Of a DNA stretch of 12,838 nucleotides, positions 1-12,491 are shown one piece after another (the stretch's first letter is position 1; each line of letters begins with the position of its first letter). The DNA lies in assembly GCA_021731425.1 (NCBI GenBank), contig JAKFXJ010000035.1:1-12838 (forward strand). Reading direction: 5' to 3'. Position numbers and translations under genes: made by a program. The notes under the pieces are model-generated. The model did not search any database, was not told where the DNA came from, and saw only the letters and a program-made list of their open reading frames with translations. Origin of the DNA: Limnohabitans sp. (GTDB lineage Bacteria > Pseudomonadota > Gammaproteobacteria > Burkholderiales > Burkholderiaceae_C).

Positions 1-150
1 CTGCACCGCACCCGTGGTCATGCCTGCAGCCCGGGCGACTTCGTGCACCGACAGCTGCCCATGCACTTTGGCCTGCATCAGGTTCAGGGCGGCATCCAGC
101 AGGCGCTCGCGCGTCTGTTCGCTTTTGATCTGGTGCAGGTTTCGGGTCAT
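1..150 (-). CDS. TetR-family transcriptional regulator, N-terminal part
   Basis: This is the first 50 residues of a DNA-binding repressor; the gene runs off the left edge with the frame open. The start ATG is at 150-148. An amphipathic helix (RERLLDAALNLMQ, about residues 14-26) is followed by a helix-turn-helix (LSVHEVARAAGMTTGAVQ, residues 33-50), the usual layout of the TetR N-terminal domain. The ligand-binding domain is not in the window, so the inducer cannot be guessed. The gene is divergent from the thioesterase at 290, and a perfect inverted repeat in the gap (166-189) begins 15 bp from its start codon. It therefore probably represses itself and the thioesterase. The family call is firm; the target assignment is inferred from the arrangement. 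Confidence 0.85.
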   Translation of the reverse strand, partial: MTRNLHQIKSEQTRERLLDAALNLMQAKVHGQLSVHEVARAAGMTTGAVQ

Positions 151-165
151 GCAATGGGCTCAAAT

Positions 166-189
166 ATTGCATTATGGTTGTAATGCAAT
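166..189. promoter_or_regulatory. Inverted repeat, probable TetR operator
   Basis: The arms ATTGCATTA (166-174) and TAATGCAAT (181-189) are exact reverse complements separated by a 6-bp spacer, TGGTTG. A 24-bp site is typical for a TetR dimer or pair of dimers. TTGCAT occurs on both strands within the arms (167-172 plus, 183-188 minus). On the minus strand it could act as a -35 element with TATTTG at 161-166 as a weak -10, so binding would block the divergent promoters. The palindrome is seen directly; the protein that binds it is inferred. Confidence 0.7.
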
Positions 190-289
190 TAGTCCCAACC
201 CGGGGTAACCCGCAGAGCTCACGTCATCCGGTCATGGAAACCAGGTCGAGTGGTGATGGAAAATTCACAACCCACAACAGGAACGTCTT

Positions 290-709
290 ATGTCAGATGC
301 GCCCCTCAGCAGAGAATCACTCCAACAAGCCCTGTCCGATCTGTTCGCCCCCTGGGTGCAGGCGCTGAATCTGAAAGTCGAAAGCTTTGACGCCGACAGC
401 GTGACCCTGCGCCTGCCGCAAAGCGATCAGTTGTCGCGCGTGGGCGGCATGTTGTGCGGGCAGGCCATGATGGCGGCTGCCGACACGGCCATGGTGCTGG
501 CGCTCATCGCGCACTTTGGCCAGTTTCGGCCCTGCAGCACGGTGCAGCTGTCCAGCACCTTCATGAAGCCCTTGTCGGGCCAGGATGCCCTGATCACCGC
601 CCGGGTGTTACGGGCGGGCAAAGCCATGGCCTTTGGCGAGATCGACCTGGCTGGCGCCGATAACGGCAAAAGCGTGTTCCGGGCCAGCACGACTTATGCC
701 CTGATGTGA
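290..709 (+). CDS. PaaI-type hotdog-fold acyl-CoA thioesterase
   Basis: A 139-residue single-domain protein of the PaaI/YdiI hotdog family, which hydrolyses acyl- or aryl-CoA thioesters in the cytoplasm. The family motif is seen as VGGMLCGQAMMAAADTAM (residues 51-68), with Asp65 in the position of the usual catalytic acid on the central helix. The beta-strand segment STVQLSSTFMKPL (83-95) and the C-terminal strand GKSVFRASTTYAL (126-138) follow. A ribosome site AGGAA lies 7 bp before the ATG. It is divergent from a TetR regulator and probably controlled by it. Oddity: its last 94 bases (616-709) recur at 10232-10325, beyond the catabolic block, and the similarity stops exactly at the stop codon. 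The native CoA substrate cannot be read from the sequence. Confidence 0.85.
   Translation: MSDAPLSRESLQQALSDLFAPWVQALNLKVESFDADSVTLRLPQSDQLSRVGGMLCGQAMMAAADTAMVLALIAHFGQFRPCSTVQLSSTFMKPLSGQDALITARVLRAGKAMAFGEIDLAGADNGKSVFRASTTYALM
616..709 (+). repeat. Direct repeat, left copy (3' end of thioesterase gene)
   Basis: Bases 616-709 match 10232-10325 without gaps, with about 11 mismatches by hand count (roughly 88%). The first 31 bases and the last 15 are identical. The left copy is part of the intact gene. The offset between the copies is 9,616 bp. No similarity is visible upstream of 616 or downstream of 709. Confidence 0.85.
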
Positions 710-772
710 ATGAACCACGGGCCACATACCGGATCTGCAGCGGGCAGACCCATTCACCGGGTCCACGACACA

Positions 773-1711
773 TCAGAACCTGCTGGCCTGGGCTGGACCG
801 GGCTGAAGCAAAGTTCCCGGCGTCCCCATCTCGGCAAACAAAATCTGGCCGTGTGTCGAATCGGTGCAAAACAAGGTCTGGCGGGAAGGACCGCCAAACG
901 CCAGGTTGGTGATCGAAGCACCTGCCGGCCCGGTCAGCACTTCCTGCGGCTCAGCGCGTGGGCTGAGCACCCAGACATAAGCCAACCCCGGGTTGGCCAC
1001 CAGCAGCCGCCCCGCCTCGTCCATGGCCAGGCCGTCGGGGCCGCTGGGGCCGTACGAGGTAAAAAACTGCCCCACCTTGGACACACTGCCGTCGGCCAAC
1101 AGCGGCATGCGCCAGACGCAGTTGCCACGCGTGGCGGCCACAAACAGAAAGCGCTCATCGTTCGAGAGAACGATGCCATTGGGGCTGGGCACGTTGGACA
1201 GCAGCGTGTCCAGCCGCCCGTCGGGCGCGAGGCGGTAGACACGGCCCGTGGGGTCGTGCAGACCAGTCTGGCCTTGGTCGGTGAAGTACAGATTGCCTTT
1301 TGAGTCGAACACCAGGTCGTTCACGCCTTTGAAGCGTTCGCTGTTACGCCGCTCCAGAAAGGGGCGCACCTGGCCGCTTTGAATGTCGAGCACCACTAGA
1401 CCATTGCGGTAGTCGGTAACCAGCAACTGCCCGGGCTTCAAGAACTTCAAGCCGTTGGGCTCGCCGTCCCACTGCGCCACCAAATCCCATTGGCCTTTCG
1501 GGCTGATCCGGAACACGCGGCCAAACGGGATGTCAGTGACGAACAGATTGCCCTGTTCGTCGAACACCGGCCCCTCCAGAAAGGAGTCCAGCTGCCTGAC
1601 GGGCATATTGGCGTCAGCCCAGAGGCTGCGCATACCGGTATTGCGGTATGAGTCGGGCATGGAACTGAAGAGCTCCAGAGGGCGAACGTCGGGCGGATTC
1701 AGAAGGATCAT
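773..1711 (-). CDS. SMP-30/gluconolactonase/LRE family protein
   Basis: A 312-residue six-bladed beta-propeller of the SMP-30/gluconolactonase family, which uses one divalent metal ion, typically to open sugar-acid or other lactones. The expected metal ligands are visible: Glu46 in FLEGPVF, Asn178 in SPNGI and Asp226 in GPDGLAMDE. Asn131 in GVNDLVFD fits the substrate-side Asn. No signal peptide is seen, so it should be cytoplasmic. The ATG at 1711 lies 7 bp after the stop of the preceding binding-protein gene. There is no strong ribosome site, which suggests translational coupling. It is the last gene of the minus-strand cluster and runs convergently into the thioesterase with only 63 bp between. 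A lactone substrate is likely, but related family members hydrolyse other esters, so the exact reaction is unknown. Confidence 0.82.
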   Translation of the reverse strand: MILLNPPDVRPLELFSSMPDSYRNTGMRSLWADANMPVRQLDSFLEGPVFDEQGNLFVTDIPFGRVFRISPKGQWDLVAQWDGEPNGLKFLKPGQLLVTDYRNGLVVLDIQSGQVRPFLERRNSERFKGVNDLVFDSKGNLYFTDQGQTGLHDPTGRVYRLAPDGRLDTLLSNVPSPNGIVLSNDERFLFVAATRGNCVWRMPLLADGSVSKVGQFFTSYGPSGPDGLAMDEAGRLLVANPGLAYVWVLSPRAEPQEVLTGPAGASITNLAFGGPSRQTLFCTDSTHGQILFAEMGTPGTLLQPGPAQASRF

Positions 1712-1718
1712 GGTGGAC

Positions 1719-2696
1719 TTATTCTGCCTTGAGGTCGAGCTCTCGGGCCAGTTGGGTGTAGGCCTTCACATCACGCTCCATATCGGCACCAAAAGCGTCG
1801 CGGCAGCTGCTTTGTGGCTCCATGCCCAAACTTTGCAGCTTGGCTGCCGTGCCAGACTGCTCGGTGAATTGTCTTGCGGCTTTCTCCAACGCCTGCAGCA
1901 CCGTGGCTGGCGTGCCTGCAGGGGCAAGCAGGCCGTACCAGGCATCGGCCACGTAGCCCTTGACGCCCGCTTCGGCAAATGTTGGGACGTTGGGCAACAA
2001 GGACGAGCGGCGTGGCGACGCTACCGCCAGCGCACTCAGCTTGCCCGCCTGCACCTGCGACAGCACCGAACCCAGCGAGGCGAAGGAGCTGTCGAGCTGG
2101 CCACCCATCACATCGGTCACCACCTGTGCAGCGCCTTTGTAGGGAATGTGGTTCATGCTCAGACCCGTCATGCGCAAAAATTGCTCCGTGGCAAAGTGAC
2201 CCGAGCTGCCGATGCCTGGTGTGCCGTAGCTGCGCTTACCCGGTGCTTCGCGCACCTGCTGCATGAAGGCGCCCAGAGTTTTGGCCGTGATGGCCGGGCC
2301 GGTGACGAGCACCGTGGGGCTGACGGCAAGGGTGCAGATAGGCGCAAAAGAGCGCACCGCGTCGAATTTGACACGGGCGCTGTACAGCGCCGGGATCATG
2401 GTGTGGTTGGTCGCGCCCATCAGGAGGGTGTAGCCGTCGGCAGGGGAAGACGCCACCGCTTCAGCGGCCAGGATGGTGTTCGCGCCAGGTTTATTTTCAA
2501 CAATGACGCTCTGGCCCAGCGCACGCGAAGCGTGCTCGGCAAAGGCGCGGGCCAGCACATCGGTGGGGCCGCCAGCCGAGAAGCCGACGATGATGCGCAC
2601 GGGTTTGCTAGGCCAGGCTTGCGCCCCGGCACTGGAGACGGCCAGGCCCATCAGTAAAGCGGTGGCCAGACGCGTTGGGTTTTGCAGTGTGCTCAT
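1719..2696 (-). CDS. Bug-family (TctC-type) periplasmic solute-binding protein 4
   Basis: A 325-residue periplasmic binding protein of the tripartite tricarboxylate transporter (Bug) family, which captures carboxylates. The signal peptide covers residues 1-27 (hydrophobic LATALLMGLAVSS, cleavage after AGAQA). The first ligand-loop motif is VGFSAGGPTDVLAR (37-50), the second conserved loop is TPGIGSSGHFATE, and HIPYKGAAQ and the VPTFAEAG segment follow as in other Bug proteins. Length is normal. It sits 12 bp downstream of binding protein 3 and 7 bp before the SMP-30 gene. It differs substantially from binding protein 3, so the pair is not a fresh duplication. No TctA/TctB permease is in the window. 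The ligand is unknown, probably an organic acid used by the neighbouring enzymes. Confidence 0.9.
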   Translation of the reverse strand: MSTLQNPTRLATALLMGLAVSSAGAQAWPSKPVRIIVGFSAGGPTDVLARAFAEHASRALGQSVIVENKPGANTILAAEAVASSPADGYTLLMGATNHTMIPALYSARVKFDAVRSFAPICTLAVSPTVLVTGPAITAKTLGAFMQQVREAPGKRSYGTPGIGSSGHFATEQFLRMTGLSMNHIPYKGAAQVVTDVMGGQLDSSFASLGSVLSQVQAGKLSALAVASPRRSSLLPNVPTFAEAGVKGYVADAWYGLLAPAGTPATVLQALEKAARQFTEQSGTAAKLQSLGMEPQSSCRDAFGADMERDVKAYTQLARELDLKAE

Positions 2697-2708
2697 TTGA
2701 AGCTGCCT

Positions 2709-3683
2709 TTATTCTTTCTTGATGCCTGCGGCCTTGACCGTGACGGCCCAGCGACCGGATTCGGCCGTCAGGTACTTGCGGAATTCTTCGGGCGAAGAGG
2801 CCACGATGCGTGAGCCCAGGCTGTCGAATCTGGCCTTGATTTCGGGTGTGGTCAACACTTCGCGCAGCGCAGCATTGAGGCGGTTGACGATGTCGGTCGG
2901 GGTCCCGCGTGGCAAAAAGATGCCATTCCATTCAAAGGACTCATAGGGCTTGCCAATCACTTCGGCCACGGTGGGCACCTCGGGGAACAGCGGATGACGC
3001 TGGGTTGAGGTAATGGCCAGCGCTTTGAGCGTGCCCGCTTTGACGTGGCTGCTGATGGCGGGCAGATTGAAAAAGCCCATGTCCACCTCGCCCGCGATGG
3101 TGCCGGTGATCGCCAGGCCACCACTCTTGTAGGGGATGTGCAGCATGTTCACGCCCGCCGCCTGGTTCATCAGCTCGGGCGCCATGTACTGCACCGTGCC
3201 CTGACCACCCGATGAGAACGTCAGCTTGCCCGGTGCGGCCTTGCCCGCCTTGATCAGATCAGCCGCCGAGGCGTAAGGAGACGCCTTGGGCACGGTCATG
3301 AGCATCGGCGTCACGCCCACTTGGGTCACCGGGATCAGGTCCTTGTCGGCATCGTAGGGCAGCTTTTGCAGATGCGGGTTGATGGAAAACGGGGTGGCGT
3401 CGTACAACATGGTGAAGCCGTCAGCGGCCGCCTGTGTCACAAATTGCGCACCAATGACGCCGCTGGCACCCGCTTTGTTGACCACCACGACCGAGGTGCC
3501 GAGTTTGGGGCCGAGGTGCTGGCCGATCAGACGCGCCAGGGCATCCGCTGTTCCGCCTGGGGCGTAGGGCACAACGATGCTGATGGGTTTGCCGTCGGGC
3601 CAGGCCGCCCAGGCTGCGGGGGCGGCCATGGTCATGGCCAGGCCTGTGGCGGCCAAGAGTGTGTTGAACGTTCTGCGTTGCAT
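2709..3683 (-). CDS. Bug-family (TctC-type) periplasmic solute-binding protein 3
   Basis: A 324-residue Bug-family binding protein. The N-terminus MQRRTFNTLLAATGLAM has a paired arginine followed by a hydrophobic stretch. Sec export is likely, and the RRTF motif also allows the Tat route; cleavage is near AWA at about residue 27. Ligand-loop motifs are VPYAPGGTADALAR (38-51) and SSGGQGTVQYMAPEL, followed by HIPYKSGGLA and EVPTVAEV. A good ribosome site (AGGAA, 7 bp from the ATG) and a 35-bp gap from the cyclase stop suggest that it can be translated independently. It belongs to the minus-strand cluster and should deliver a carboxylate ligand to a TctAB permease encoded elsewhere. The ligand cannot be deduced. 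Confidence 0.9.
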   Translation of the reverse strand: MQRRTFNTLLAATGLAMTMAAPAAWAAWPDGKPISIVVPYAPGGTADALARLIGQHLGPKLGTSVVVVNKAGASGVIGAQFVTQAAADGFTMLYDATPFSINPHLQKLPYDADKDLIPVTQVGVTPMLMTVPKASPYASAADLIKAGKAAPGKLTFSSGGQGTVQYMAPELMNQAAGVNMLHIPYKSGGLAITGTIAGEVDMGFFNLPAISSHVKAGTLKALAITSTQRHPLFPEVPTVAEVIGKPYESFEWNGIFLPRGTPTDIVNRLNAALREVLTTPEIKARFDSLGSRIVASSPEEFRKYLTAESGRWAVTVKAAGIKKE

Positions 3684-3718
3684 GGTGTCTTCCTCTCAAT
3701 GGGGTGGTTTTAGGTGGG

Positions 3719-4801
3719 TTAAACGGTGGCGATGGGGGTCACGGGTGAACCGGCTGCGCCCGGCAGGCGCAGCGGCGGGGCCGTGAGCAAAAAGCGCGAG
3801 CGACCTGCATTGCGCAGCCAGTGCGCCAGTGGCGTGAGCCACCACAGCTCGCCCAAGTGGATGCCGTTCTTGAACAGGCAGTGCTCGTGCAGCGGCAGGC
3901 GGGGCCCACGCAGCGGGGTGGTGCGCGTGAGTGAGGGGCCGGACACCAGTTCCACGGCCGGGTTGTCGGCCATCAGGCAGGCCAGGCGCGTGTCGCTGAT
4001 CCAGCCCAGAAGGCGCTCGTCCGAGCCGTCCAGGCCGCTGCCTGTTTCGTGCAGATGTTTCACATCGGGCTGCTTGCGCATGGCCAGCAGCGTGTCGGCA
4101 AAACCGGTGTGCAGGCAAACCATGTCGCCTGCTTCGATCTCGATCTTGTCGGCTTCGAGGATGCGCATCAGTGGGTCGTAGCCCACGGCCACACGCTGGC
4201 GGCCCAGGTGCTTGTCCAGGTCGATCAGCACGCCCCGACCTTGCGCGCCATGCACGGCCAGGTTGGCCACCCCCAAAGCGCCCGCATCCGGGTCGGGGTA
4301 GCGCGCCCAGGCGTGCGGGGCCTGTTCGTCGGTGCGACCGGGGTGAAGGTCAGTGCCCGCACGAAAACCGTTGTAGAAGACAGCCTCGGCCTCGCCGTCG
4401 CCGTCGGCATCGAAGCGGCTGCCGATGTGCGCCAGGCTGTCCCATTGGGTCGAGTACTGGGTATTCATCAGCATGACCTCGTCGCAGACGACATCGGTCA
4501 GATTCGGGTCTTCTGTCGCATACGACCAGCAAAAACCTTGCACGCCTGCACTGGCACCGTCGCGCAGCGTGCCATAGAGCCGGGGCGGCAGGCGGCGCGC
4601 ATTGAGCGCCACGCCGCCAGGCACGTCCAGCGGCAGCGACAGGCAAAAGGTCAGGCCTTCGCGCACTTCGGCCATGCCTTGGCGCACCTTGGCGGGTGTG
4701 ACCAGGTTCATGCGGCCCAGGCGGTCGTCCGGCCCGAACTCGCCCCAGTGGCTGCCGGGTGGTGACTGTTTCCAGCGTGGGCTCATGGCCTGCGTGGTCA
4801 T
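3719..4801 (-). CDS. Cyclase-family metal-dependent hydrolase (kynurenine formamidase-like fold)
   Basis: A 360-residue protein of the cyclase family (PF04199 type), whose members are metal-dependent amidases, lactonases or cyclases. It is longer than the approximately 210-residue kynurenine formamidases and fits the long form. In place of HxGTHxDxPxH it has QYSTQWDSLAHIG (115-127), where Asp121 and His125 keep the metal-site spacing. Other conserved-looking parts are GRGVLIDL (188-195), CLHTGF (229-234) and NGIHLGELWWL (312-322). An Asp-rich loop DADGDGE (131-137) resembles a calcium loop. No signal peptide is present. The ATG at 4801 has GAGG about 9 bp upstream, and the gene follows the dehydrogenase by 11 bp. 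It is probably a ring-opening or amide-cleaving step of the same pathway; the substrate is unknown. Confidence 0.8.
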   Translation of the reverse strand: MTTQAMSPRWKQSPPGSHWGEFGPDDRLGRMNLVTPAKVRQGMAEVREGLTFCLSLPLDVPGGVALNARRLPPRLYGTLRDGASAGVQGFCWSYATEDPNLTDVVCDEVMLMNTQYSTQWDSLAHIGSRFDADGDGEAEAVFYNGFRAGTDLHPGRTDEQAPHAWARYPDPDAGALGVANLAVHGAQGRGVLIDLDKHLGRQRVAVGYDPLMRILEADKIEIEAGDMVCLHTGFADTLLAMRKQPDVKHLHETGSGLDGSDERLLGWISDTRLACLMADNPAVELVSGPSLTRTTPLRGPRLPLHEHCLFKNGIHLGELWWLTPLAHWLRNAGRSRFLLTAPPLRLPGAAGSPVTPIATV

Positions 4802-4812
4802 GGTCGATAGCC

Positions 4813-5739
4813 TCAGGCCGTGGCCTGGGCCAGCACGTCCAACACATTGCGCACCGCGCCCACGCCCATGTTGATGTAGGCATCACTGGTCACGCCGCCG
4901 ATGTGCGGGCTCAGGATGATGTTCGGTGCGTTATGGAAGATGTGCGGCACGGTCATGGGTTCGACCGCGAAGCTGTCCAGGCCTGCTGCGAACACCTGGC
5001 GCGACTGCACGGCGGCCAACAATTCGGCTTCGTTGACCAGGCCACCCCGGGCGGTGTTGACCACGATCACGCCGGGTTTGCACTGCGCCAGCGTTTGGGC
5101 GTTGACCATGCCCCGGTTCTCGGGAGTCAGCGGACAGTGCAGCGAAATCGCATCCGACTCGCGCCAAATGGTGTCCAGATCCACCGCCTGAATGAAGTCA
5201 GGCAGGTTCTTGGCAAACGGGTCAAAGCCCAGCACCTTCATGCCCATGGCGTCACACATGCGTGCAAAACGCTGACCGATCGCGCCCAGACCCACCAGCC
5301 CGATTGTGCGGCCGTGCAGTTCGATGCTCTTGTGCGTGGCCTTGTCCCAGTGGCCCGCGTGCATGCGGGTGTTGAGGTCCCCCACAGACTTGGCGCAGGC
5401 CAGCAGCAGAGCCAGGGCTTGTTCGGCCACTGCGGCGGCGTTGGCCCCGATGGCGGCACGCACCTCGATGCCGCGTGCCTGGGCGGCGGCCTTGTCGATG
5501 GTGTCGGTGCCGCTGCCGTGCTTGGAGATCACGCGCAGCGAGGGCGCGGCGTCCATCACCTTGGCGCCCACGGCGCCGTAGCGCACGATGAAGGCGACGG
5601 GGTCATGCTGCTGGCACAAGGTCACCAGCTGCTCTTCGGTCGGGGTCTTGCCTGCGTAGACGATCTCGAAATCGCCGAGCAGGTCCAGGGCTTGCTGCGC
5701 CAGATCGGCGCCGGTCACGATGAGGGCGGGGCGGCTCAC
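4813..5739 (-). CDS. D-2-hydroxyacid dehydrogenase, NAD-dependent
   Basis: A 308-residue member of the D-isomer-specific 2-hydroxyacid dehydrogenase family (relatives include phosphoglycerate dehydrogenase and glyoxylate/hydroxypyruvate reductase), which interconverts a 2-oxoacid and a D-2-hydroxyacid. The nucleotide fold shows GLGAIG (150-155) and Asp173 at the end of the second strand, favouring NAD over NADP. The catalytic triad is Arg231 (NTARGG), Glu260 (FAVEP) and His279 (SPHIGG), with the usual 29- and 19-residue spacings. There is no C-terminal ACT domain, so it is probably not the biosynthetic serine enzyme. The start is GTG at 5739, overlapping the preceding stop as GTGA, with GGAG 7 bp upstream. 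This indicates coupled translation with the RraA-like gene. The substrate is inferred to be a pathway 2-oxoacid or hydroxyacid. Confidence 0.88.
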   Translation of the reverse strand: MSRPALIVTGADLAQQALDLLGDFEIVYAGKTPTEEQLVTLCQQHDPVAFIVRYGAVGAKVMDAAPSLRVISKHGSGTDTIDKAAAQARGIEVRAAIGANAAAVAEQALALLLACAKSVGDLNTRMHAGHWDKATHKSIELHGRTIGLVGLGAIGQRFARMCDAMGMKVLGFDPFAKNLPDFIQAVDLDTIWRESDAISLHCPLTPENRGMVNAQTLAQCKPGVIVVNTARGGLVNEAELLAAVQSRQVFAAGLDSFAVEPMTVPHIFHNAPNIILSPHIGGVTSDAYINMGVGAVRNVLDVLAQATA

Positions 5740-6416
5740 AGGTTTTCTCCGTCCTTGAGCACACCTGCGGCGCGCAGCGAGGGCACCAGCCAGGATGCTG
5801 CCGTCTTGCCCTCTTTGATCTGGGCGATGCGCTTGGCTTCGTCTTCGACCTTCTTGTGGGCAGCCGGGATCAGGCTGGCGAGTTTGTCTTTCTCGACCAC
5901 CACGATGCCGTCGGCATCGGCCAGCACAAAGTCACCAGCGTTGACAGTCACGCCGCCGCAGCTGATGGGGTGGCCGATGCGCCCGCCGATGTTCTTGGTC
6001 GGGCCATTGGGGTTGGTGCCCACCGAGAAGACCGGGAAGTCCATCTCATCGATCTCCAAGCTGTCGCGCACGGCGCCGTCCACGATGACGCCCGCAATGC
6101 CAAGCTGGCGGCAGGCGGTCATCATGATGGTGCCCATCAGCGCCGAGGTCTGGTCGCCCTTGCCGTCGATCACCAACACATCACCGGGTTTGGCCATGGC
6201 GATTGCCGCGTGGATCATCAGGTTGTCGCCAGGGCGCACCTCGACGGTGAGGGCCGGGCCGGCCACCTTCATGCGCGGGCGCAGGGCCTGAATGCGGCCA
6301 TGCATGGCACCGCGACGACCCGCCACGTCGGCCAGGATGGCGGCCTGAAAGCCTTCGGCCTGTTGGACCAGCTCTGGGGAAACGCGTTCAAAGTTGCGCA
6401 CGATGTCTTGGCTCAT
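5736..6416 (-). CDS. RraA/HMG-CHA aldolase-like protein
   Basis: A 226-residue protein of the RraA-like fold shared by 4-hydroxy-4-methyl-2-oxoglutarate / 4-carboxy-4-hydroxy-2-oxoadipate aldolases, which release pyruvate or decarboxylate oxaloacetate using Mg2+ or Mn2+. Such proteins are often mislabelled as menaquinone methyltransferases. Visible motifs are KPGDVLVIDGKGD (76-88) and VIVDGAVRDS (110-119), with Arg117-Asp118 as the substrate and metal pair. In the D-x20-R-D pattern that I recall for the family, the first acidic position is Thr96 here, so catalysis by the textbook mechanism is not assured. The ribosome site AAGGA lies 7 bp before the ATG. The stop overlaps the dehydrogenase start by 4 bp. 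In a catabolic cluster, aldolase or decarboxylase function is more likely than RNase E inhibition. Confidence 0.8.
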   Translation of the reverse strand: MSQDIVRNFERVSPELVQQAEGFQAAILADVAGRRGAMHGRIQALRPRMKVAGPALTVEVRPGDNLMIHAAIAMAKPGDVLVIDGKGDQTSALMGTIMMTACRQLGIAGVIVDGAVRDSLEIDEMDFPVFSVGTNPNGPTKNIGGRIGHPISCGGVTVNAGDFVLADADGIVVVEKDKLASLIPAAHKKVEDEAKRIAQIKEGKTAASWLVPSLRAAGVLKDGENL

Positions 6417-6448
6417 GGGGTGTCCTTGTATGAAAAGAAAAAAGAAAT

Positions 6449-7435
6449 TCAGTCGACTCTGATATTGGCCGTGCGGATGACGCGAGCCCAGGTGGCCGAG
6501 TCATTGGTTTGTGTATCGGCCAGCACCTTGGCGCTGCCGCCGACCAGCGTGATGCCGAGCCTGTCGGCCAGTTCGGTCACCACACTGTCTTTCAGGGCCT
6601 TGTTGATTTCGGTGTTCAGGCGTTGCACCACGGAAGCGGGGGTGCGGGCGGGCAGGTAAACGCCTTGCCACTGCTCCACCACAAAATCTTTCTGACCGAC
6701 TTCGGCCATGGTGGGCACATCGGGCAAGACCTTGAGACGCGCCGCCGAGGTGGCAGCCAGCGCGCGCAGCTTGCCACTCTTGATGTGGGGCAAGGCCGCG
6801 GTCACTGGCGCAAACATGAATTGCACCTGCTGACCCAGGGTGTCTTGCAAGGCGGGCGTGTCGCCCTTGTAGGGCACATGGATGAACTTCACGCCATTGC
6901 GCTGGGCCAGCAACTCGGCCTGCATTTGCAAGATGGTGCCGTTGCCGCCGGAGGCGAACGCAATCTCGCCCGGCTTGGCTTTGGCAGCGCTGAGCAAGTC
7001 GGCAACCGACTGGTAGGGCTGGGAGGTGCCAACCACCAAAACGTGCGCAATCGTGCCCACCAAGCTCACGGGCTCCAGGTCCTTGAGGGGGTCAAAGGGC
7101 AGCTTGGGCATGAGGTGGGGCGCAATGGTCTGCGCGCCGATGGTGGTGTGCAGCACGGTATGCCCATCGGGTACGGCTTTGGCCACAAAAGCACCCCCGA
7201 TGGTGCCAGTGGCACCGGCCTTGTTTTCCACCACCACGCTGGCACCCGTCGAAGCCCCGATGCGCTGCACCAAGGTGCGTGCCAGTACATCGGTGCTGCC
7301 AGCGGCCGGGTAGGGCACGACCCAGCTGGTGGGGCGGTTACCCGGCCATTCGGCTTGCGCAAAGGCCGAGGGCATCACACAGAGTGTGCATAAGCTGGCA
7401 ACCAACAAGCGACGAAAAGAGGAAAGGGTGTTCAT
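6449..7435 (-). CDS. Bug-family (TctC-type) periplasmic solute-binding protein 2
   Basis: A 328-residue Bug-family binding protein. The signal peptide spans about residues 1-27 (FRRLLVASLCTLCVMPSAFAQA). The first ligand loop is VPYPAAGSTDVLAR, in which the usual Pro-Gly-Gly is Ala-Ala-Gly; the second is SGGNGTILQMQAEL. HVPYKGDTP and DVPTMAEVG follow in the expected order. The ATG is only 3 bp after the amidohydrolase stop, with no strong ribosome site, so it probably depends on translation of that gene. A 32-bp A/G-rich gap on the plus strand separates its stop from the RraA-like gene. It should bind a carboxylate for uptake; the altered loop hints at a ligand different from the other three proteins. 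Confidence 0.9.
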   Translation of the reverse strand: MNTLSSFRRLLVASLCTLCVMPSAFAQAEWPGNRPTSWVVPYPAAGSTDVLARTLVQRIGASTGASVVVENKAGATGTIGGAFVAKAVPDGHTVLHTTIGAQTIAPHLMPKLPFDPLKDLEPVSLVGTIAHVLVVGTSQPYQSVADLLSAAKAKPGEIAFASGGNGTILQMQAELLAQRNGVKFIHVPYKGDTPALQDTLGQQVQFMFAPVTAALPHIKSGKLRALAATSAARLKVLPDVPTMAEVGQKDFVVEQWQGVYLPARTPASVVQRLNTEINKALKDSVVTELADRLGITLVGGSAKVLADTQTNDSATWARVIRTANIRVD

Positions 7436-7438
7436 GGT

Positions 7439-8356
7439 TTAGCTTTCAGTGAGTGCGTCAAAGCCGTAGAGCTTTTGCGGGTTGTGAACCAGGATTTGTT
7501 CGAGTTGTTGGCCATCACCCGCCCATCTGGCCAATGCGTCGATTTGCGCCGCGTCGTCGGGCATGGGGTGGCGCCCGGCTGATGCGGTGACATGTGGCCA
7601 GTCACTGCCCCAGATCACGCGATCGGGTGCAGCGTCGATGAAACTGAGGGCCAGTGGCAAGAGTTGCGGGTCATCGGTGTCATGGTCTGGGCTGACCAGG
7701 TAACCCCCTGACAACTTGACCCAAGCGCGCCCCGCGCCCAGCAGTTCGAGTAAGAGCGCGTGCGCCGGGTGCCGGCCACACAGGCCCGGCGTGACACGGC
7801 CAAAATGGTCAAAGACCAACTCGACAGGCAAAACACGCAGACGTTCGAGCAGGGCAACCAATTGCTCCAGCGGCATCAGCAATTGCAAATGCCAGCCCAA
7901 AGGAGCAATGCGTCGGGCGACTTTTTCAATATCGCTGGGCTGGTGTAGGACGCCCAAGGACAGGTTGATGCGCACCCCCCGCACGCCGAGCTGGTGGAGT
8001 GTCTGGAGCTCCGCTGCAGGCTCGTCACCAGTGATGACCGCGACGCCTCGTCCTTGGGAGCCCAGCTGGGCCAGTCCGGCCAGCATGGGGCGGTTGTCGG
8101 CACCGTAGGTCGATGGTGTCACCAGCACAGCACGTTCCGTACCCATGCGTTGTTGCACCGATCGGTAGTCTTCAATCGTGGCGTCCGGCGGGTGAAGGGA
8201 TGCGCCAGCCACCGCCGTAAATCGGCTGTCATACACATGGATGTGCGCATCACAGGCCTTGGCCGGCAAAGGCGTTCGGGCCAATCCGGTGCCAGCGGAG
8301 AATGCAAAAGGTGCAGACAAGGTTGCGCCCTGATCTTGGCCGTCAAGCAGGCTCAA
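7439..8356 (-). CDS. Amidohydrolase-family lactonase (COG3618 / LigI-like)
   Basis: A 305-residue TIM-barrel amidohydrolase of the group containing 2-pyrone-4,6-dicarboxylate hydrolase, L-fucono-lactonase and galactarolactone isomerase. The first-strand motif is DAHIHVYD (His38, His40). Further landmarks are GVRGVRIN (125-131), VFDHFGR (His184), WVKLSGGY (212-219), the last-strand acid in IWGSDWPH (Asp252) and HNPQKLYGF near the C-terminus. No signal peptide is convincing. The start is TTG at 8356, overlapping the binding-protein 1 stop as TTGA, with AAGG just upstream; the next Met is far into the fold. Opening of a lactone or pyrone dicarboxylate is the best guess. No LigJ-type hydratase accompanies it, so the full protocatechuate 4,5-cleavage route is not shown. 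Confidence 0.83.
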   Translation of the reverse strand: MSLLDGQDQGATLSAPFAFSAGTGLARTPLPAKACDAHIHVYDSRFTAVAGASLHPPDATIEDYRSVQQRMGTERAVLVTPSTYGADNRPMLAGLAQLGSQGRGVAVITGDEPAAELQTLHQLGVRGVRINLSLGVLHQPSDIEKVARRIAPLGWHLQLLMPLEQLVALLERLRVLPVELVFDHFGRVTPGLCGRHPAHALLLELLGAGRAWVKLSGGYLVSPDHDTDDPQLLPLALSFIDAAPDRVIWGSDWPHVTASAGRHPMPDDAAQIDALARWAGDGQQLEQILVHNPQKLYGFDALTES

Positions 8357-9348
8357 TCTACCTTGGCGCCAGAACCTTTAACCACCGGAGCCCATTTGGC
8401 GATGTCGCGCTGAATGAGCTGGCCGAATTCGCTGGCACTTGTGGGCGTCACAGTCAGGCCCTGATCTTCGAGCTTTTTTCGCAGATCGGGGGCGTTCAGT
8501 GCCTTGTTGAGTTCGGTGCTGGCGCTGGCCACCACGGCAGGTGGCAAATTTGCCGGACCCAGCAGACCAAACCAGGTGACGGCATCAAAACCTTTGTAGC
8601 CCGATTCGGCTACGGTGGGCGTTTGGGGCAGGTCATCGACCCGCTTGGCGCTGGTGACCGCCAGCGCACGGAGTTTGCCGTTCTTGATATGCCCGATCAG
8701 GGTGGGCACCGAGGAGACATAAAGCTGGACCTGGCCACCCATCACATCGTTGATGCCCTGGGCCGCACCTTTGTAGGGGATGTGGGTGAGTTTGACGTTG
8801 GCTTCACGCTGCAGCAGCTCGGTGGCCAAGTGGGCCACGGTGCCATTGCCCGAGGTGGCGTAGTTCACAACGCCAGGTTGCGCCTTGGCGGCGTTGATGA
8901 CATCCCCGAGGTTGCGAAGTGGCGAATTGGCGGCGACCACCACCACCAAGGCGGCATTGCCGACCAAGCCGATCGGGGTGAGGTCCTTGACCGGGTCGTA
9001 GGGCAGCTTGCTGTAGAGCGAGGGGTTGATGGCCAGGTTGCTGGTCTGACCGATCACGAGGCTGTAACCGTCGGGGCTGGACTTGGCAGCGTTGTCAATG
9101 CCAATGTTGCCGCCCGATCCTGGCTTGTTGTCGATCACGAAGGTCCACTTGTTGGTGGCCGCCATCTTCTGTGTCACCTCCCGGGCAATGATGTCGGTGC
9201 CTCCACCGGCCGGGAAAGGCACGACCATACGGATTGGCTTGGCGGGCCAGTTGTCAGTTTGGGCCATGGCGGGCGAAAGGGCCAGGGCACCCAAGAGGCC
9301 AAGCGCGAGGCGGCGCGACAGCGCCTGGCGAGAAGGACGAATCAACAT
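8353..9348 (-). CDS. Bug-family (TctC-type) periplasmic solute-binding protein 1
   Basis: First gene of the minus-strand cluster, encoding a 331-residue Bug-family binding protein. I start it at the ATG ending at 9348 because GGAG lies 6 bp upstream. An in-frame ATG at 9360 would add METN but has no ribosome site. The signal peptide is MLIRPSRQALSRRLALGLLGALALSPAMA, where SRRLAL resembles a Tat motif. Motifs are VPFPAGGGTDIIAR (about 43-56), TSGNGTVAHLATEL, HIPYKGAAQGINDVMGGQ and QTPTVAESG. Its stop overlaps the amidohydrolase start by 4 bp. It lies directly opposite the IclR regulator and is likely controlled by it. The ligand is unknown, probably the compound attacked by the adjacent amidohydrolase. 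Confidence 0.9.
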   Translation of the reverse strand: MLIRPSRQALSRRLALGLLGALALSPAMAQTDNWPAKPIRMVVPFPAGGGTDIIAREVTQKMAATNKWTFVIDNKPGSGGNIGIDNAAKSSPDGYSLVIGQTSNLAINPSLYSKLPYDPVKDLTPIGLVGNAALVVVVAANSPLRNLGDVINAAKAQPGVVNYATSGNGTVAHLATELLQREANVKLTHIPYKGAAQGINDVMGGQVQLYVSSVPTLIGHIKNGKLRALAVTSAKRVDDLPQTPTVAESGYKGFDAVTWFGLLGPANLPPAVVASASTELNKALNAPDLRKKLEDQGLTVTPTSASEFGQLIQRDIAKWAPVVKGSGAKVD

Positions 9349-9368
9349 GTTTGTCTCCATAGGGTTTT

Positions 9369-9426
9369 GTGAAATGAGTGGGGTGAAATGTAGACACTTG
9401 CTTCACTGGATACAATGATGCTTCAC
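9369..9426. promoter_or_regulatory. Divergent control region with repeated GTGAA/TTCAC half-sites
   Basis: GTGAAATG occurs at 9369-9376 and 9383-9390 (14-bp offset). GCTTCAC occurs at 9400-9406 and 9420-9426 (20-bp offset, about two helical turns). Minus-strand promoter candidate: TTGTAT (-35, 9410-9415), 17-bp spacer, TACATT (-10, 9387-9392). Plus-strand -10 candidate for the IclR gene: TACAAT at 9411-9416, without a clear -35. The promoter assignments are weak; the repeats are seen directly. Confidence 0.45.
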
Positions 9427-9430
9427 AGAA

Positions 9431-9444
9431 TGAAACATGTTTCA
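9431..9444. promoter_or_regulatory. Perfect 14-bp palindrome overlapping the IclR start codon
   Basis: TGAAACATGTTTCA is its own reverse complement, and its last base is the A of the IclR ATG. IclR-family dimers bind palindromes of this size in the gap between their own gene and the divergent target operon. Bound protein would sit just downstream of the expected transcription start, suggesting autorepression. The palindrome is certain; the binding protein is inferred. Confidence 0.65.
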
Positions 9445-10226
9445 TGCCGCGATATTCAAAGCCCCAAGCAGCGTCTAGCGATGCGCCCACCCAGGAACAA
9501 ACTCCGGAAGGTGGCGTCATCGCTGTCTCGCGTGCTTTACAGGTGATGGAGGCATTTCGCATTGGCGAGCGTCACCTGACCTTGGCAGAACTGAGCCGCC
9601 GCACAGGTTTGCACAACAGCACGGTGCTGCGCCTGGCGCGCACGTTGGCGCACAGCGGTTACATGGTCCAGCGCGAAGAAGGCGAATGGCGGCTGGGCCC
9701 AGCAGCGGGCTGGCTGGGAGCGCGCTACCAAGCCGGTTTTGACATCAACAATGCCGTTCAGCCTTTGCTGCGCAGTCTGTCCGAGCATGCCCAGGAAAGT
9801 TCCTCCTTTTATGTGCGCGAGGGCGATGAACGTGCCTGCATTGCGCGTGTCGAAGGGCCGCAGTCCGTGCGGCATCACGTCCGCATTGGAATGCGTCTGC
9901 CCTTGCACCTGGGGGCGCCGGGTCGGGTGATCTTGGCGTTTTCCGGGGAACCCGGAGAAGTGTACGAAGACATCCGTCGGCGCGGATACCACATCTCGAT
10001 GGGGGAGCGCGAACCCCAGGTCTCCAGCGTGGCGGCCCCAGTATTCGGCCTCAATTGGCGACTGCTGGGCTCGATGTGCATTTCAGGACCCACCTCCCGC
10101 TTGACCGAGAAGGCTCTTGAAACCCATGCCCAAACTGTGATGGCCGCTGCCAATAGCTTGTCGTATGCATTGGCCGGGGCACGTTCGGACAATACGCCCA
10201 ATGTGGTTTCAACTTGGCATCCCTGA
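9444..10226 (+). CDS. IclR-family transcriptional regulator
   Basis: A 260-residue regulator with a winged helix-turn-helix at about 25-88 (AVSRALQVMEAF, LTLAELSRRTGLHNSTVLRLARTLAHSGYM, then EWRLGPAAGWLG) and an IclR effector domain at about 103-243, marked by LPLHLGAPGRVILAF (152-166) and VAAPVFG (196-202). Length is normal. It is divergent from the nine-gene cluster, so it most likely senses a pathway compound and controls that cluster. The start at 9444 is the only sensible Met before the DNA-binding domain, but no Shine-Dalgarno sequence precedes it and a palindrome covers the start. The stop at 10224-10226 is followed after 5 bp by the thioesterase remnant, so the edge of the acquired block is right at this gene's 3' end. 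Confidence 0.9.
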   Translation: MPRYSKPQAASSDAPTQEQTPEGGVIAVSRALQVMEAFRIGERHLTLAELSRRTGLHNSTVLRLARTLAHSGYMVQREEGEWRLGPAAGWLGARYQAGFDINNAVQPLLRSLSEHAQESSSFYVREGDERACIARVEGPQSVRHHVRIGMRLPLHLGAPGRVILAFSGEPGEVYEDIRRRGYHISMGEREPQVSSVAAPVFGLNWRLLGSMCISGPTSRLTEKALETHAQTVMAAANSLSYALAGARSDNTPNVVSTWHP

Positions 10227-10231
10227 AGTCA

Positions 10232-10325
10232 GGGCAAAGCCATGGCCTTTGGCGAGATCGACTTGACCGGGGCCGACGACGGCAAGAGCGTTTTTCGGGC
10301 CAGCACCACCTATGCCCTGATGTGA
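10232..10325 (+). pseudogene. Remnant of thioesterase 3' end (right copy of direct repeat)
   Basis: These 94 bases have no start codon of their own. Read in the thioesterase frame they encode the last 30 residues with two changes (AlaGly to ThrGly, AsnGly to AspGly), and end at the same TGA. Most of the roughly 11 DNA differences from 616-709 are silent. The two copies thus come from diverged functional genes and are not a fresh duplication followed by neutral decay. It is probably the original 3' end of the gene, displaced when the catabolic block arrived. Confidence 0.82.
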
Positions 10326-10360
10326 GCCGGGTTGTCAGCGGCCCGCCAGCTGGGCTTGGC

Positions 10361-10366
10361 TACAAT
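10361..10366 (+). promoter_or_regulatory. Candidate -10 element for the small membrane protein gene
   Basis: TACAAT lies 27 bp before the ATG at 10394, a sensible distance for a short leader. No good -35 is found at 16-18 bp spacing; TTGTCA at 10332-10337 is 23 bp away, which is too far. It is a weak call, based on the -10 match and on the fact that the gene has no upstream neighbour that could carry it. Confidence 0.35.
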
Positions 10367-10393
10367 ACGGCCATTCTTGTTTCGGGGTACCCC

Positions 10394-10528
10394 ATGTCTG
10401 CTCACAACGACTCTCACACATCCGACGATCCCGTTGAAAACGTGGTCAAGCACATTCCCGTGATCATTCCGGCCGCTGGTGCCGTGCTGATTTTCCTGCT
10501 GGCCTTCATCGCCGTGTTCATGGCCTGA
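10394..10528 (+). CDS. Small single-pass membrane protein, 44 aa, function unknown
   Basis: A 44-residue protein with a polar, acidic N-terminus (MSAHNDSHTSDDPVENVVKH, residues 1-20) and one hydrophobic helix (IPVIIPAAGAVLIFLLAFIAVFM, 21-43) ending at the last residue. It has no charged tail, and the His/Asp-rich start would lie on one face of the inner membrane. GGGG 7-10 bp before the ATG may serve as ribosome site. A -10-like TACAAT and a strong downstream terminator make it a self-contained transcription unit, which supports a real gene. I do not recognise the family. It lies convergent to modC and is not obviously linked to molybdate uptake. Confidence 0.7.
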   Translation: MSAHNDSHTSDDPVENVVKHIPVIIPAAGAVLIFLLAFIAVFMA

Positions 10529-10570
10529 GGCTTTACCGCCCCCGGTGCGCCGCTTGGTCGCACCCGCCCA

Positions 10571-10605
10571 ACCCGCAACAGCCCGTGCTTTGCGGGTTTT
10601 ATTTT
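10571..10605 (+). terminator. Rho-independent terminator after the small membrane protein gene
   Basis: ACCCGCAA (10571-10578) pairs with TTGCGGGT (10590-10597) around an 11-base loop, followed by TTTTATTTT (10597-10605). The tail covers the modC stop codon (10599-10601 on the other strand), so two convergent units meet here. Confidence 0.75.
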
Positions 10606-11768
10606 GTCCGTACGGGCATGATGTGCAGCGCCCCCGGCGCGATCAGCAGCTGAACCCAGCCGCCAGCCCCCACTTGCAAACGCCGCAGCAGTCGGCTGGT
10701 CAGGTTCAAGGTGATGGTTTGGCTGGGCAGGGCTTCGGGCCTGAGCGTGCACAGGCTGATTTCGCCCAGCGACAAGACCTCCAGCAATTGGCAGCGCAAA
10801 CGGGTGTGGCCAGGCGCCAAGTGACCGGGCAGCTCGCCATCGGCCAGCACGTCCACCTGTTCACCATTCAGCACCCAGGTCACGCGGGTGCCGTTGTCGA
10901 TTTTGTTTTTGTCAAAAACGGCCAGGGCCAATTCGGCTTCTGGCTGCGCGGCGTCTGTCCAGCACAAGCGCCCCCAACCGTCCTCACCCTTCACAAAGCG
11001 CCCTTCAAAGTGGTTTTGAATGCCCACCAATTCGGCCACCCGGGCGTTGCGCGGGCTGGCAAACACGCGGGCAGGCTCACCCGTTTGCAGGGTCTGGCCC
11101 GCGTCCACGATCACCACCCGGTCGGCCAGGCGGCGGGCCTCGGACAGGTCGTGTGTGACCAGCACCATGGGCACCGACACCTTTTGGCGCAAGGCGGCCA
11201 GCTCGCGGTAAAGCGTCTGGCGTGTGGGCGCGTCCACCGCAGAAAAAGGCTCGTCGAGCAACAAAACACCGGGCAAGACTTGCGGCGCATCGGCTTGCGC
11301 CACTGAGGGCCTGGGCATGACCCGCACCAATGCCCGCGCCAGCGCCACCCGTTGCTGCTGCCCCCCCGATAGCTGGGACGGCCTGCGCGCACGCAACTCG
11401 GCCAAGCCCAAACGAGCGAGCAATGTCTGCACCTCTTCGCTGGACCAGCCCGGCCCGGCGGCCAGGGCGACATTGGCCTGCGCCGTCATGTGCGGAAACA
11501 GCGCGTAATGCTGGAACACCAGACCCGCCCGGCGCTGCTGCGGGGTCAGCTGCACACCCGCTGCCGTATCCAACCACGCCTGGCCCGCCACCCGGATATG
11601 GCCTTGCAGATCGGCAGGCGTCCACAAGCCCGCAATGGCGCGCAGCATGCTGGTTTTGCCGCTTCCCGACGGCCCGACCAAAGCCACCAACTCCCCAGCG
11701 CCGCAGTCAAATTCAGCCTCCAGCCGAATGGGGCTGGACGAACGCAGTTGCACTTGCAAGCCGGACAT
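10599..11768 (-). CDS. modC: Molybdate ABC transporter ATP-binding protein
   Basis: A 389-residue ATPase that powers molybdate import with ModB and ModA. Walker A is GPSGSGKT (32-39), Q-loop Gln86, signature LSGGQQQR (133-140), Walker B VLLLDEP (168-174) with Glu173, and the switch His206. The C-terminal region (about 250-389) fits a TOBE/Mop-like molybdate regulatory domain. The start is the ATG at 11768, because AGGAG lies 5 bp upstream and it overlaps the modB stop as TGATG; a TTG one codon earlier is less likely. Oddity: between the signature and Walker B there are about 12 extra residues (around MPRPSVAQADAPQVLPG). Sulfate or tungstate specificity cannot be excluded from ModC alone, but ModB and ModA features favour molybdate. 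Confidence 0.88.
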   Translation of the reverse strand: MSGLQVQLRSSSPIRLEAEFDCGAGELVALVGPSGSGKTSMLRAIAGLWTPADLQGHIRVAGQAWLDTAAGVQLTPQQRRAGLVFQHYALFPHMTAQANVALAAGPGWSSEEVQTLLARLGLAELRARRPSQLSGGQQQRVALARALVRVMPRPSVAQADAPQVLPGVLLLDEPFSAVDAPTRQTLYRELAALRQKVSVPMVLVTHDLSEARRLADRVVIVDAGQTLQTGEPARVFASPRNARVAELVGIQNHFEGRFVKGEDGWGRLCWTDAAQPEAELALAVFDKNKIDNGTRVTWVLNGEQVDVLADGELPGHLAPGHTRLRCQLLEVLSLGEISLCTLRPEALPSQTITLNLTSRLLRRLQVGAGGWVQLLIAPGALHIMPVRTK

Positions 11769-12445
11769 CAACGCTCCTGCAGGGCGCGGCCGCGCTGGCC
11801 CACCCGGTCAAACGCCAGCACCAGACTCAGCGCCAGCAGGGACACACCCACCAGCACCAGCGCCATGACATGGGCCGACTGCAAATCCATGCCCTGCACC
11901 TTGTCGTAGAGCGACACCGACAGCGTGCGCGTCTCGCCTTCGATGTTGCCGCCCACCATGAGCACCACACCAAACTCGCCCAAGGTGTGTGCCACCGTGA
12001 GCGCCATACCGGCCAGCAAACCGGGCCAGGCCAGCGGCAACTCGATGCGCCAAAACGTCTGCCAAGTGGACAAGCCCGAGACCCAGGCCGCCTCGCGCAA
12101 GCTGTGCGGCACCGCCGCAAAAGCCCGCTGAATCGGCTGCACCATGAAAGGCAGGTTGACCAAGACGCTCACCAGCAACAGGCCTTCGAGGGTGAAGACC
12201 AGCCGAATGCCGGAATCCGCCAGCCAGGCCCCCAAAGCGCTGCCTTGACCAAAAGCCACCAAAAAATAAAAGCCAATCACCGTGGGTGGCAACAGCAAGG
12301 GCAGCAGCAGCAAAGCCTCGACCACAGGGCGGCCTGCCCAGGCGGTCACGGCCAACCAGCGGGCCAAGGCCAGTCCCAGCGGCAACAAAGCCAAGGTGGT
12401 CAAGACGGCCAAAGTCAGCGAGACGTGAAGGGCGGACCAATCCAT
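11768..12445 (-). CDS. modB: Molybdate ABC transporter permease
   Basis: A 225-residue inner-membrane permease with about five hydrophobic segments (roughly 8-33, 41-66, 85-105, 142-165, 192-212). The cytoplasmic EAA loop that docks the ATPase is REAAWVSGLSTWQTFWRIELPLAWPG (117-142). The stretch AHTLGEFGVVLMVGGNI (152-168) is typical of ModB. I start it at MDWSALHV (ATG at 12445), which matches the family N-terminus; upstream in-frame extension to 12523 would overlap modA and adds no membrane segment. It lies 46 bp after modA and overlaps modC by one base, so it belongs to a modABC operon. Confidence 0.9.
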   Translation of the reverse strand: MDWSALHVSLTLAVLTTLALLPLGLALARWLAVTAWAGRPVVEALLLLPLLLPPTVIGFYFLVAFGQGSALGAWLADSGIRLVFTLEGLLLVSVLVNLPFMVQPIQRAFAAVPHSLREAAWVSGLSTWQTFWRIELPLAWPGLLAGMALTVAHTLGEFGVVLMVGGNIEGETRTLSVSLYDKVQGMDLQSAHVMALVLVGVSLLALSLVLAFDRVGQRGRALQER

Positions 12446-12491
12446 GGGATGCGTTTTTCGGGCGAATGAAAGTGCGGAGTGTGGGTCTGGA

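Follow-up and report, generated by a model that had tools for sequence, protein, structure and literature searches.

How a whole set of catabolic genes came to lie between two copies of the same gene end is the question raised by this Limnohabitans locus. The window, i.e., the complete stretch of 12,838 nucleotides analyzed here, yielded a single direct-repeat family in a repeat scan: a 94-nt repeat with copies at 616-709 and 10232-10325 that align without gaps, are identical at 83 of 94 positions (88%), and are spaced by 9,616 bp (E = 5.5e-28). At an E-value of 0.001, these are the only two such places in the genome. Both copies represent the 3′ end of a thioesterase (TE) gene and are closed by the same TGA, but while the left copy completes a 139-codon open reading frame (ORF; 290-709), the right one belongs to no gene, which confirms the initial annotation of a full gene on the left and an orphan tail on the right. 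The first 31 bases of the copies are identical and all 11 differences fall within 647-694, with 8 of them at third codon positions and two predicted to change a residue (A/T and N/D). Among the 396 genome pairs with 9–13 tail differences in a set of 47 genus genomes, pairs that are not independent of each other, a single one showed no difference across these first 31 bases, which marks such a start as unusual, and 30 displayed an identical run of at least 31 bases anywhere in the tail. The 31-bp stretch was otherwise found only in two relatives, the sister species G063 and genome G102, among the TE loci compared. The features of the window are as follows.

1-150, minus strand: putative TetR-family regulator, N-terminal 50 codons, with the rest on contig C291
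290-709, plus strand: complete hotdog-fold TE gene with a putatively replaced 3′ end (PF03061 and PF13622 above cut-off)
616-646, plus strand: 31 bp without differences between the copies, most likely the crossover zone
647-709, plus strand: foreign-looking TE 3′ tail of 63 bp, 81% identical to G063 and at most 88.9% across 47 genomes
710-772: spacer from the TE stop to the stop of the SMP-30 gene, with no clear counterpart in the genus
773-1711, minus strand: SMP-30/gluconolactonase-like gene (PF08450), left end of the block
1719-2696 and 2709-3683, minus strand: two TctC/Bug-type receptors, the first by PF03401, the second by its match to the same genes of relatives
3719-4801, minus strand: cyclase-family protein (PF04199)
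4813-5739, minus strand: D-2-hydroxyacid dehydrogenase (PF02826, PF00389)
5736-6416, minus strand: RraA-like aldolase (PF03737)
6449-7435, minus strand: TctC/Bug-type receptor, by matches to those genes of relatives that the Pfam-tested receptor also hits
7439-8356, minus strand: amidohydrolase (PF04909)
8353-9360, minus strand: TctC/Bug-type receptor, assigned on the same basis as that at 6449-7435
9444-10226, plus strand: IclR-family regulator (PF01614, PF09339), right end of the block
10227-10231: right junction, 5 bases from the IclR stop to the orphan tail
10232-10325, plus strand: native TE 3′ tail, now an orphan
10394-10528, plus strand: small protein of 44 aa, native right neighbor
10599-12838, minus strand: putative modC, modB, and part of modA (names from the first reading), native flank

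The block thus counts ten genes rather than the nine initially annotated, i.e., nine on the minus strand (773-9360) and the IclR gene on the plus strand (9444-10226). Seven of the ten matched Pfam families as catabolic, receptor, or regulator genes, and the other three match Bug receptors. The amidohydrolase resembles 4-sulfomuconolactone hydrolase but scores far under the family cut-off (NF042924, 139 of 500 bits), and in the right flank the ModC profile match is also below cut-off (TIGR02142, 175 of 285 bits). Among named SMP-30 loci of Burkholderiales (the best 80 of 572), 75 carry the genes for RraA and the dehydrogenase on one strand, with a divergent IclR gene of ≥55% identity in 39 of those 75, and only 7 of the 80 carry the full set of RraA, dehydrogenase, such an IclR, cyclase, and amidohydrolase. 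Unlike here, this TE gene was present in none of the 80 loci, 18 of which were stretches <20 kb.

Next, we evaluated the corresponding locus in relatives. An intact TE gene was detected in 47 other Limnohabitans genomes, with the small gene directly after it in 37 and the block beside it in none. The locus of G063 and G102 runs on into modCBA without the block, and no copy was seen elsewhere in either genome, that of G063 being a single contig with 100% completeness. Given the TE–small gene adjacency in 37 of 47 genomes and the absence of the block from all 47 loci, the block is therefore an insertion in this lineage, and the empty site proposed in the initial annotation is intact in relatives; an old genus feature at the TE gene is ruled out by the same count. 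In silico excision of the 9,616 bp yields an intact 139-codon TE gene that is 93.4% identical to G063 (370/396), near the background of 92–94% in the longest stretches compared. Other genes follow the TE gene in ten relatives, and were of catabolic type in the nine read by eye. The insertion suggests that the TE–small gene–mod interval is a place of catabolic gene exchange in Limnohabitans.

The two tails differ in their closeness to the sister species. The right tail is identical to G063 at 93 of 94 positions and to G102 at 92 of 94, whereas the left tail matches G063 at 82 of 94 (right vs left, Fisher p = 0.0025). The right flank (10232-12838) is 95.0% identical to G063 over 2,607 aligned bases; the corresponding values are 90.7% for the whole left TE gene and 91.7% for its 5′ part alone. 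Judged by sequence, the right tail is the native one, and the left tail looks foreign and is not of the sister type. The trees suggested in the initial annotation gave a mixed outcome, with the TE 5′ part grouping with G063 and G102 (support 93/91, just under the strong-support mark) and the grouping of the 94-bp tails not being separated, as AU tests, which are weak on such short tails, rejected no grouping (tails as sisters, p = 0.35). A recent local duplication of the tail is nevertheless disfavored because the right tail is closer to another species (93/94) than to the left tail (83/94). Neither of the outcomes initially named as contrary, a block at the TE gene throughout the genus or tails grouping as a simple local duplication, was observed. 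The switch to foreign-like sequence at 647 was not significant in a permutation test (p = 0.13), and a Fisher test that yielded 0.008 was post hoc. On one background contig, identity to G063 drops to 77–84% in some stretches, which places a tail at 87% close to the range of this genome.

The block itself, whole or reduced, was identified in at least 7 of the 89 other genomes of the genus, a lower bound from three candidates scored per genome among the matches listed, at apparently four other sites and never beside the TE gene. The G065 copy is 90.8% identical to the one in the window, and the G065 background is at 83% in the longest stretch of one contig and at 76–89% in pieces >500 bp of another. 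In six copies (G065, G013, G110, G072, G006, and G090), similarity ends 0–4 bases past the IclR stop, and the other copies have the same gene boundaries, i.e., the SMP-30 stop and the IclR stop, which probably reflect the operon. No flanking direct repeat was detected in the six copies with both flanks comparable, some of them short (0.9 kb on the left in G065, 1.2 kb on the right in G110) and with G082 left out as its contig ends in IclR. The four site groups share no common outer sequence, which, together with these repeat-free flanks, speaks against an element with fixed ends. Matches between the flanks of G006 and G090 were inverted, not direct. An SMP-30 fragment lies at a contig edge in G108, and G091, for which no block match was listed, has a completeness of only 74%.

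As in the initial annotation, no integrase, transposase, or terminal inverted repeat was found: no recombinase was recognized among the window proteins tested, and none of three inverted-repeat pairs brackets the block, such that both marks of a transposon or integrase-borne island, a recombinase gene and terminal inverted repeats, are missing from these scans. The genome has six Phage_integrase matches, none on this contig. This profile, which does not include serine recombinases, was run on ten TE-variant genomes and six others; in the ten TE-variant relatives and G063, matches were absent from the TE contig or >200 kb away from the TE gene. Of the initial proposal that an element entered the TE 3′ end and supplied a replacement end, the geometry therefore stands, while an element with its own ends is not supported, given the lack of flanking direct repeats around the other copies tested and of a recognized recombinase.

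Taken together, we consider it likely that this lineage gained a ten-gene catabolic operon under IclR control by horizontal transfer, via recombination in the TE 3′ end, and we infer that host homologous recombination, not an integrase, performed the insertion. The incoming DNA would have carried a diverged TE 3′ tail beside the SMP-30 end of the operon, and homologous recombination would have fused the native TE 5′ part with the incoming tail, the crossover falling most likely within the 31 bp of identity, which would have kept the TE gene complete. The native 3′ tail would thereby have been pushed 9.6 kb away, to become a non-coding orphan before the small gene and the mod genes. The anchor would be conserved TE coding sequence, and the incoming DNA would have needed no recombinase of its own. 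The donor may have been a circle, for which one crossover would suffice, or a linear fragment, one end of which was joined illegitimately. Linear capture of this kind is not expected to duplicate the 31 identical bases, and because these are present twice, a single crossover with a circle fits better. The event is probably recent, since the displaced native tail is still identical at 93 of 94 positions to the sister species.

Of the origins initially envisaged, recombination with a relative whose block is TE-linked provides the best fit, although such a relative was absent from the 47 genus TE loci and from the 80 named SMP-30 loci (best 80 of 572). A query across the spacer (700-800) against 90 genus genomes returned its own match and scraps of ≤32 bp (best E = 0.003). 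The right-junction pattern was detected in this genome alone among 399 family genomes, only 6 of which belong to the genus. A junction-spanning ORF obtained 69 matches in a protein collection, the best-scoring one covering 65% of the query and the largest coverage being 85%; none of the 69 includes the residues across the IclR–TE join, and no alignment begins before query residue 17.

Alternatively, an integrase may have inserted a circle at the 31-bp core, with the element supplying the new end and the integrase genes being lost later. Several characteristics resemble such a decayed integrative element, akin to a cis-mobilizable element (CIME): identical 31-bp direct repeats lie at both ends, the repeat begins 5 bases after the last gene of the block and runs to the TE stop, excision restores an intact gene, and all ten genes are assigned without any for recombination or transfer. 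Parts of PMC7563491 describe CIMEs as similar cargo-only units of 1.2–13 kb, lying in islands at the 3′ ends of protein-coding genes such as rpmG, rpsI, and fda, with direct repeats and no recombinase. However, no integrase was recognized in the window or near the TE gene in the relatives tested, the genome’s own six matches are on other contigs, no related ICE/IME was found at this site among 47 TE loci, and the cargo at other sites has neither flanking direct repeats, where testable, nor common outer sequence. A decayed element, one of the two origins offered in the initial annotation, thus gained no support from these surveys and we regard it as unlikely.

It is less probable still that the whole left region is foreign, i.e., that a donor near G063 contributed a complete TE gene together with the block and an illegitimate right join cut the native TE gene to its last 94 bases. 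The left TE gene is indeed further from G063 than the right flank (90.7% vs 95.0%), and with a within-gene change point at p = 0.13, all of it could be foreign. In addition, the adjacent TetR gene is missing from the corresponding place in G063 and G102; it lies divergently beside the TE gene in G020 (86%) and ~1 kb upstream of it in G034 and G070. Yet the TE 5′ part is nearest to G063 and G102 and near background, and so is a FAD-oxidoreductase-like gene on contig C291 (92.4% to G063). The last 191 bases of this contig, from the same assembly, match the first 191 of the window with 1 mismatch, so the sequence carries on to the left. Such a donor would also need to combine a closely related 5′ part with a distant tail. 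Least probable is a chimera of two sequences from a mixed sample joined by the assembler through their common 31-mer. The assembly, at 405 contigs and 82% completeness, is fragmented, the mismatch in the C291 overlap suggests a strain mixture, and the switch sits at an exact 31-mer; but a k-mer switch would account for one join only, the right join from the IclR stop to the TE tail has no homology that could misdirect the assembly process, and a search of the assembly found neither another TE tail nor a native TE–small gene join.

The locus has partial parallels in known systems. Insertion of prophage e14 into icd of Escherichia coli swaps the 3′ end of a coding gene for a diverged copy and leaves the old end on the far side, as proposed here. 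Unlike the TE block, at which nothing like an integrase was recognized, e14 is a prophage with its own integrase. Orphan 3′ parts are also known from T6SS and rhs loci, for which passages in PMC5361080 and PMC3240628 propose homology-facilitated illegitimate recombination: as would be the case here, an incoming module is anchored by homology to the target and the old 3′ part is kept downstream. At our locus, a catabolic operon is the cargo, and the gene of a metabolic enzyme would serve as the anchor. According to the relevant passages of PMC3240628, the other side of such events mostly involves 3–10 bp of microhomology, and a recipient deletion of similar size is generally observed; here there is no sizeable recipient deletion, as excision gives an intact TE gene beside its native right neighbors, and the 31 identical bases are doubled.

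Overall, horizontal gene transfer has left a clear trace at this locus, though one of a fairly ordinary kind, and the locus offers a snapshot of how an entire operon can enter a chromosome with no mobile element in sight. The case suggests that the 3′ end of a coding gene may act as a passive landing site for metabolic operons, through a mechanism proposed for toxin/immunity loci. More speculatively, and in our view improbably, the 9,616-bp unit could be a recombinase-free catabolic cassette that moves in and out by homologous recombination alone, with a gene 3′ end as its address; the TE gene would then be intact on both entry and exit, and the 31-bp repeats would make the unit reversible in the population.

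On plasmids, partial matches to the block were obtained in 19 records, the best coverage being in Variovorax with 76% identity over the cyclase, dehydrogenase, and RraA genes. In the SMP-30 protein search, 428 of 8,000 candidates scored passed, and 120 relatives were listed at 82–92% identity. Eleven of these 120 have 312 residues, as does the SMP-30 protein of the window, the length of which is thus natural.

The two ends of the catabolic block carry, as the initial annotation had claimed, a 94-bp repeat: bases 616–709 and 10232–10325 align without gaps at 83 of 94 positions, and all 11 differences lie past base 31. The left copy completes a 139-codon gene that encodes a hotdog-fold thioesterase (TE) according to its ORF and Pfam match, while the right copy is an orphan tail. 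Seven of the ten block genes were named from Pfam, the remaining three, Bug receptors, by matching the same genes of relatives, and the mod names are putative. The assembly (G000) comprises 2.8 Mb in 405 contigs and is 82% complete.

290–709, plus strand: TE gene, with the left tail at 616–709
773–9360, minus strand: nine block genes, in order an SMP-30-like lactonase, two Bug/TctC receptors, a cyclase-family protein, a D-2-hydroxyacid dehydrogenase, an RraA-like aldolase, a Bug receptor, an amidohydrolase and a Bug receptor
9444–10226, plus strand: IclR regulator of the block, divergent from the other nine genes
10232–10325: right (orphan) TE tail
10394–10528, plus strand: small gene of 44 aa
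10599–12838, minus strand: modC, modB and part of modA

The small protein, which has no family match in Pfam or NCBIfam, adjoins modC in many genomes of the genus. By eye, the shared 31-mer (616–646 in the left copy) contains an imperfect dyad, CAAAG-CCATGGC-CTTTG, which may merely mirror the codons of GKAMAFG.

TE matches at E 1e-10 were found in 49 of the 90 genus genomes, i.e., the window's own genome, 47 others with an intact gene, and G096 with a fragment. Across all 47 other intact loci, TE is directly followed by the small gene in 37, and by a Bug gene in seven, either lying between TE and the small gene (4/47, with further genes there in G021) or with the small gene outside the stretch (3/47); other genes follow TE in the last three. 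The block follows TE in none of the 47, which marks it as inserted in this lineage.

We then compared both tails with G063, which, like G102, is a sister genome with an empty site. From 10232 onward, the right flank is 95.0% identical to G063 over 2607 bases, and its tail matches at 93 of 94 positions, against 82 of 94 for the left tail, whose last 63 bases reach at most 88.9% identity to any of 47 genomes. The TE 5′ part (314–615) is 91.7% identical to G063 and groups with G063 and G102 (support 93/91; 296 columns, 320–615). For background, the longest G000–G063 matches on two other contigs are at 92% and 94%, and shorter pieces of one of these contigs at 77–84%. Removing 9616 bp restores an intact TE with 370/396 identities to G063 (93.4%), compared to 359/396 (90.7%) when the left tail is kept. 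Taken together, these identities single out the left tail as the anomalous part. The entire left TE, and not just its tail, could nevertheless be foreign: the change at position 647 inside the left copy has a permutation p of 0.13 (the Fisher value of 0.008 there is post hoc), and AU tests rejected none of four tail groupings.

The block also occurs, whole or in part, in at least seven of the 89 other genus genomes, with three candidates scored per genome: G065 (90.8% over 9.4 kb), G013 (80.5%), G110 (76.5%), and reduced copies in G072, G006, G082, and G090. Shared flanks define four sites (G013 and G072; G006, G082, and G090; G065; G110), with little flanking sequence in G065 and G110. None of the six testable copies (G082 leaves its contig) yielded a flanking direct repeat, and G006 and G090 display inverted matches between the block flanks. 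Five of the seven genomes have no TE match, and in G013 and G072 TE lies on a different contig. Among 80 named SMP-30 loci, RraA and dehydrogenase genes are present on the same strand in 75, and TE was seen in none. The block is closer to G065 than the G000–G065 background, which is 83% over 8.2 kb and 70–86% in other pieces (76–89% in pieces >500 bp on a further comparison), and this favours a recent intra-genus transfer from a donor outside the sampled genomes.

That the block was inserted and pushed the native 3′ end aside is well supported by the empty sites and the native right tail, as initially proposed, and homology-anchored capture is the most likely mechanism. The simplest route to identical 31-mers at both ends would be for the chromosome to recombine with a circle carrying a TE tail and the block, by a single crossover within the 31-mer. 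Alternatively, homology-facilitated illegitimate recombination, in which a linear donor has one illegitimate end, would yield the same map, but would not favour a duplicated identical stretch; either route would require host recombination alone. A donor tail that had simply diverged would be unlikely to share the first 31 bases exactly: this was seen in 1 of 396 equally diverged pairs, though 30 of the 396 have an identical stretch of such length at some point in the tail (pairs are not independent). One of the two options in the initial proposal, a decayed element, is possible but unsupported. Insertion by an integrase would produce the same picture; however, of six Phage_integrase matches in the genome (five over cut-off), none is on the window contig. 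Likewise, G063 and the ten relatives in which TE is directly followed by a gene other than the small one have either no such match on the TE contig or one >200 kb away, and the nearest same-contig match to any of the seven block copies is ~36 kb away (G072). These searches were made with the Phage_integrase profile and bear on that family, not on serine recombinases.

The same geometry is proposed for T6SS immunity genes and the same idea mentioned for rhs loci (PMC5361080), PMC3240628 describes what homology-facilitated illegitimate recombination typically looks like, and cis-mobilizable elements (CIMEs) are defined in PMC7563491. Among the papers listed for Limnohabitans with horizontal gene transfer and genomic islands, or with tripartite tricarboxylate transporters, none describes such an event in its title or abstract opening. 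The window represents a clear case of an already known kind of event.

On the left, the last 191 bases of contig C291 from the same assembly (locus L138) equal window positions 1–191 with one mismatch, and the two contigs are probably neighbours that strain variation kept apart. C291 holds part of an FAD-oxidoreductase-like gene (92.4% to G063), followed by amidase-like, Bug receptor, and TetR genes (putative names from reading the sequence) in the same order as in G020, G034, and G070. Since this cassette is absent between oxidoreductase and TE in G063 and G102, this lineage would have acquired genes both left and right of TE, unless the left-hand ones were lost in the sisters. TE flanks vary across the genus (L082, L083, L085–L130), where Bug, amidase-like, ABC-transporter-like, enoyl-CoA-hydratase-like, and CoA-ligase-like genes alternate (most names by eye), a pattern resembling that of a hot spot where catabolic genes turn over. 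By eye, nine of ten variant TE loci carry transport and catabolic-type genes, the ORFs of G032 being uninformative. Two loci, L084 (G007) and L130 (G096), retain only TE codons 79–121 beside the FAD-oxidoreductase-like gene, apparently as a remnant of a broken TE that they have in common; a second, intact TE lies elsewhere in G007. Finally, in two metagenomic ORFs (P0016 and P0041) the small gene is fused to a TE start or to what seems a decayed TE tail, and TE may have been lost repeatedly in front of it.
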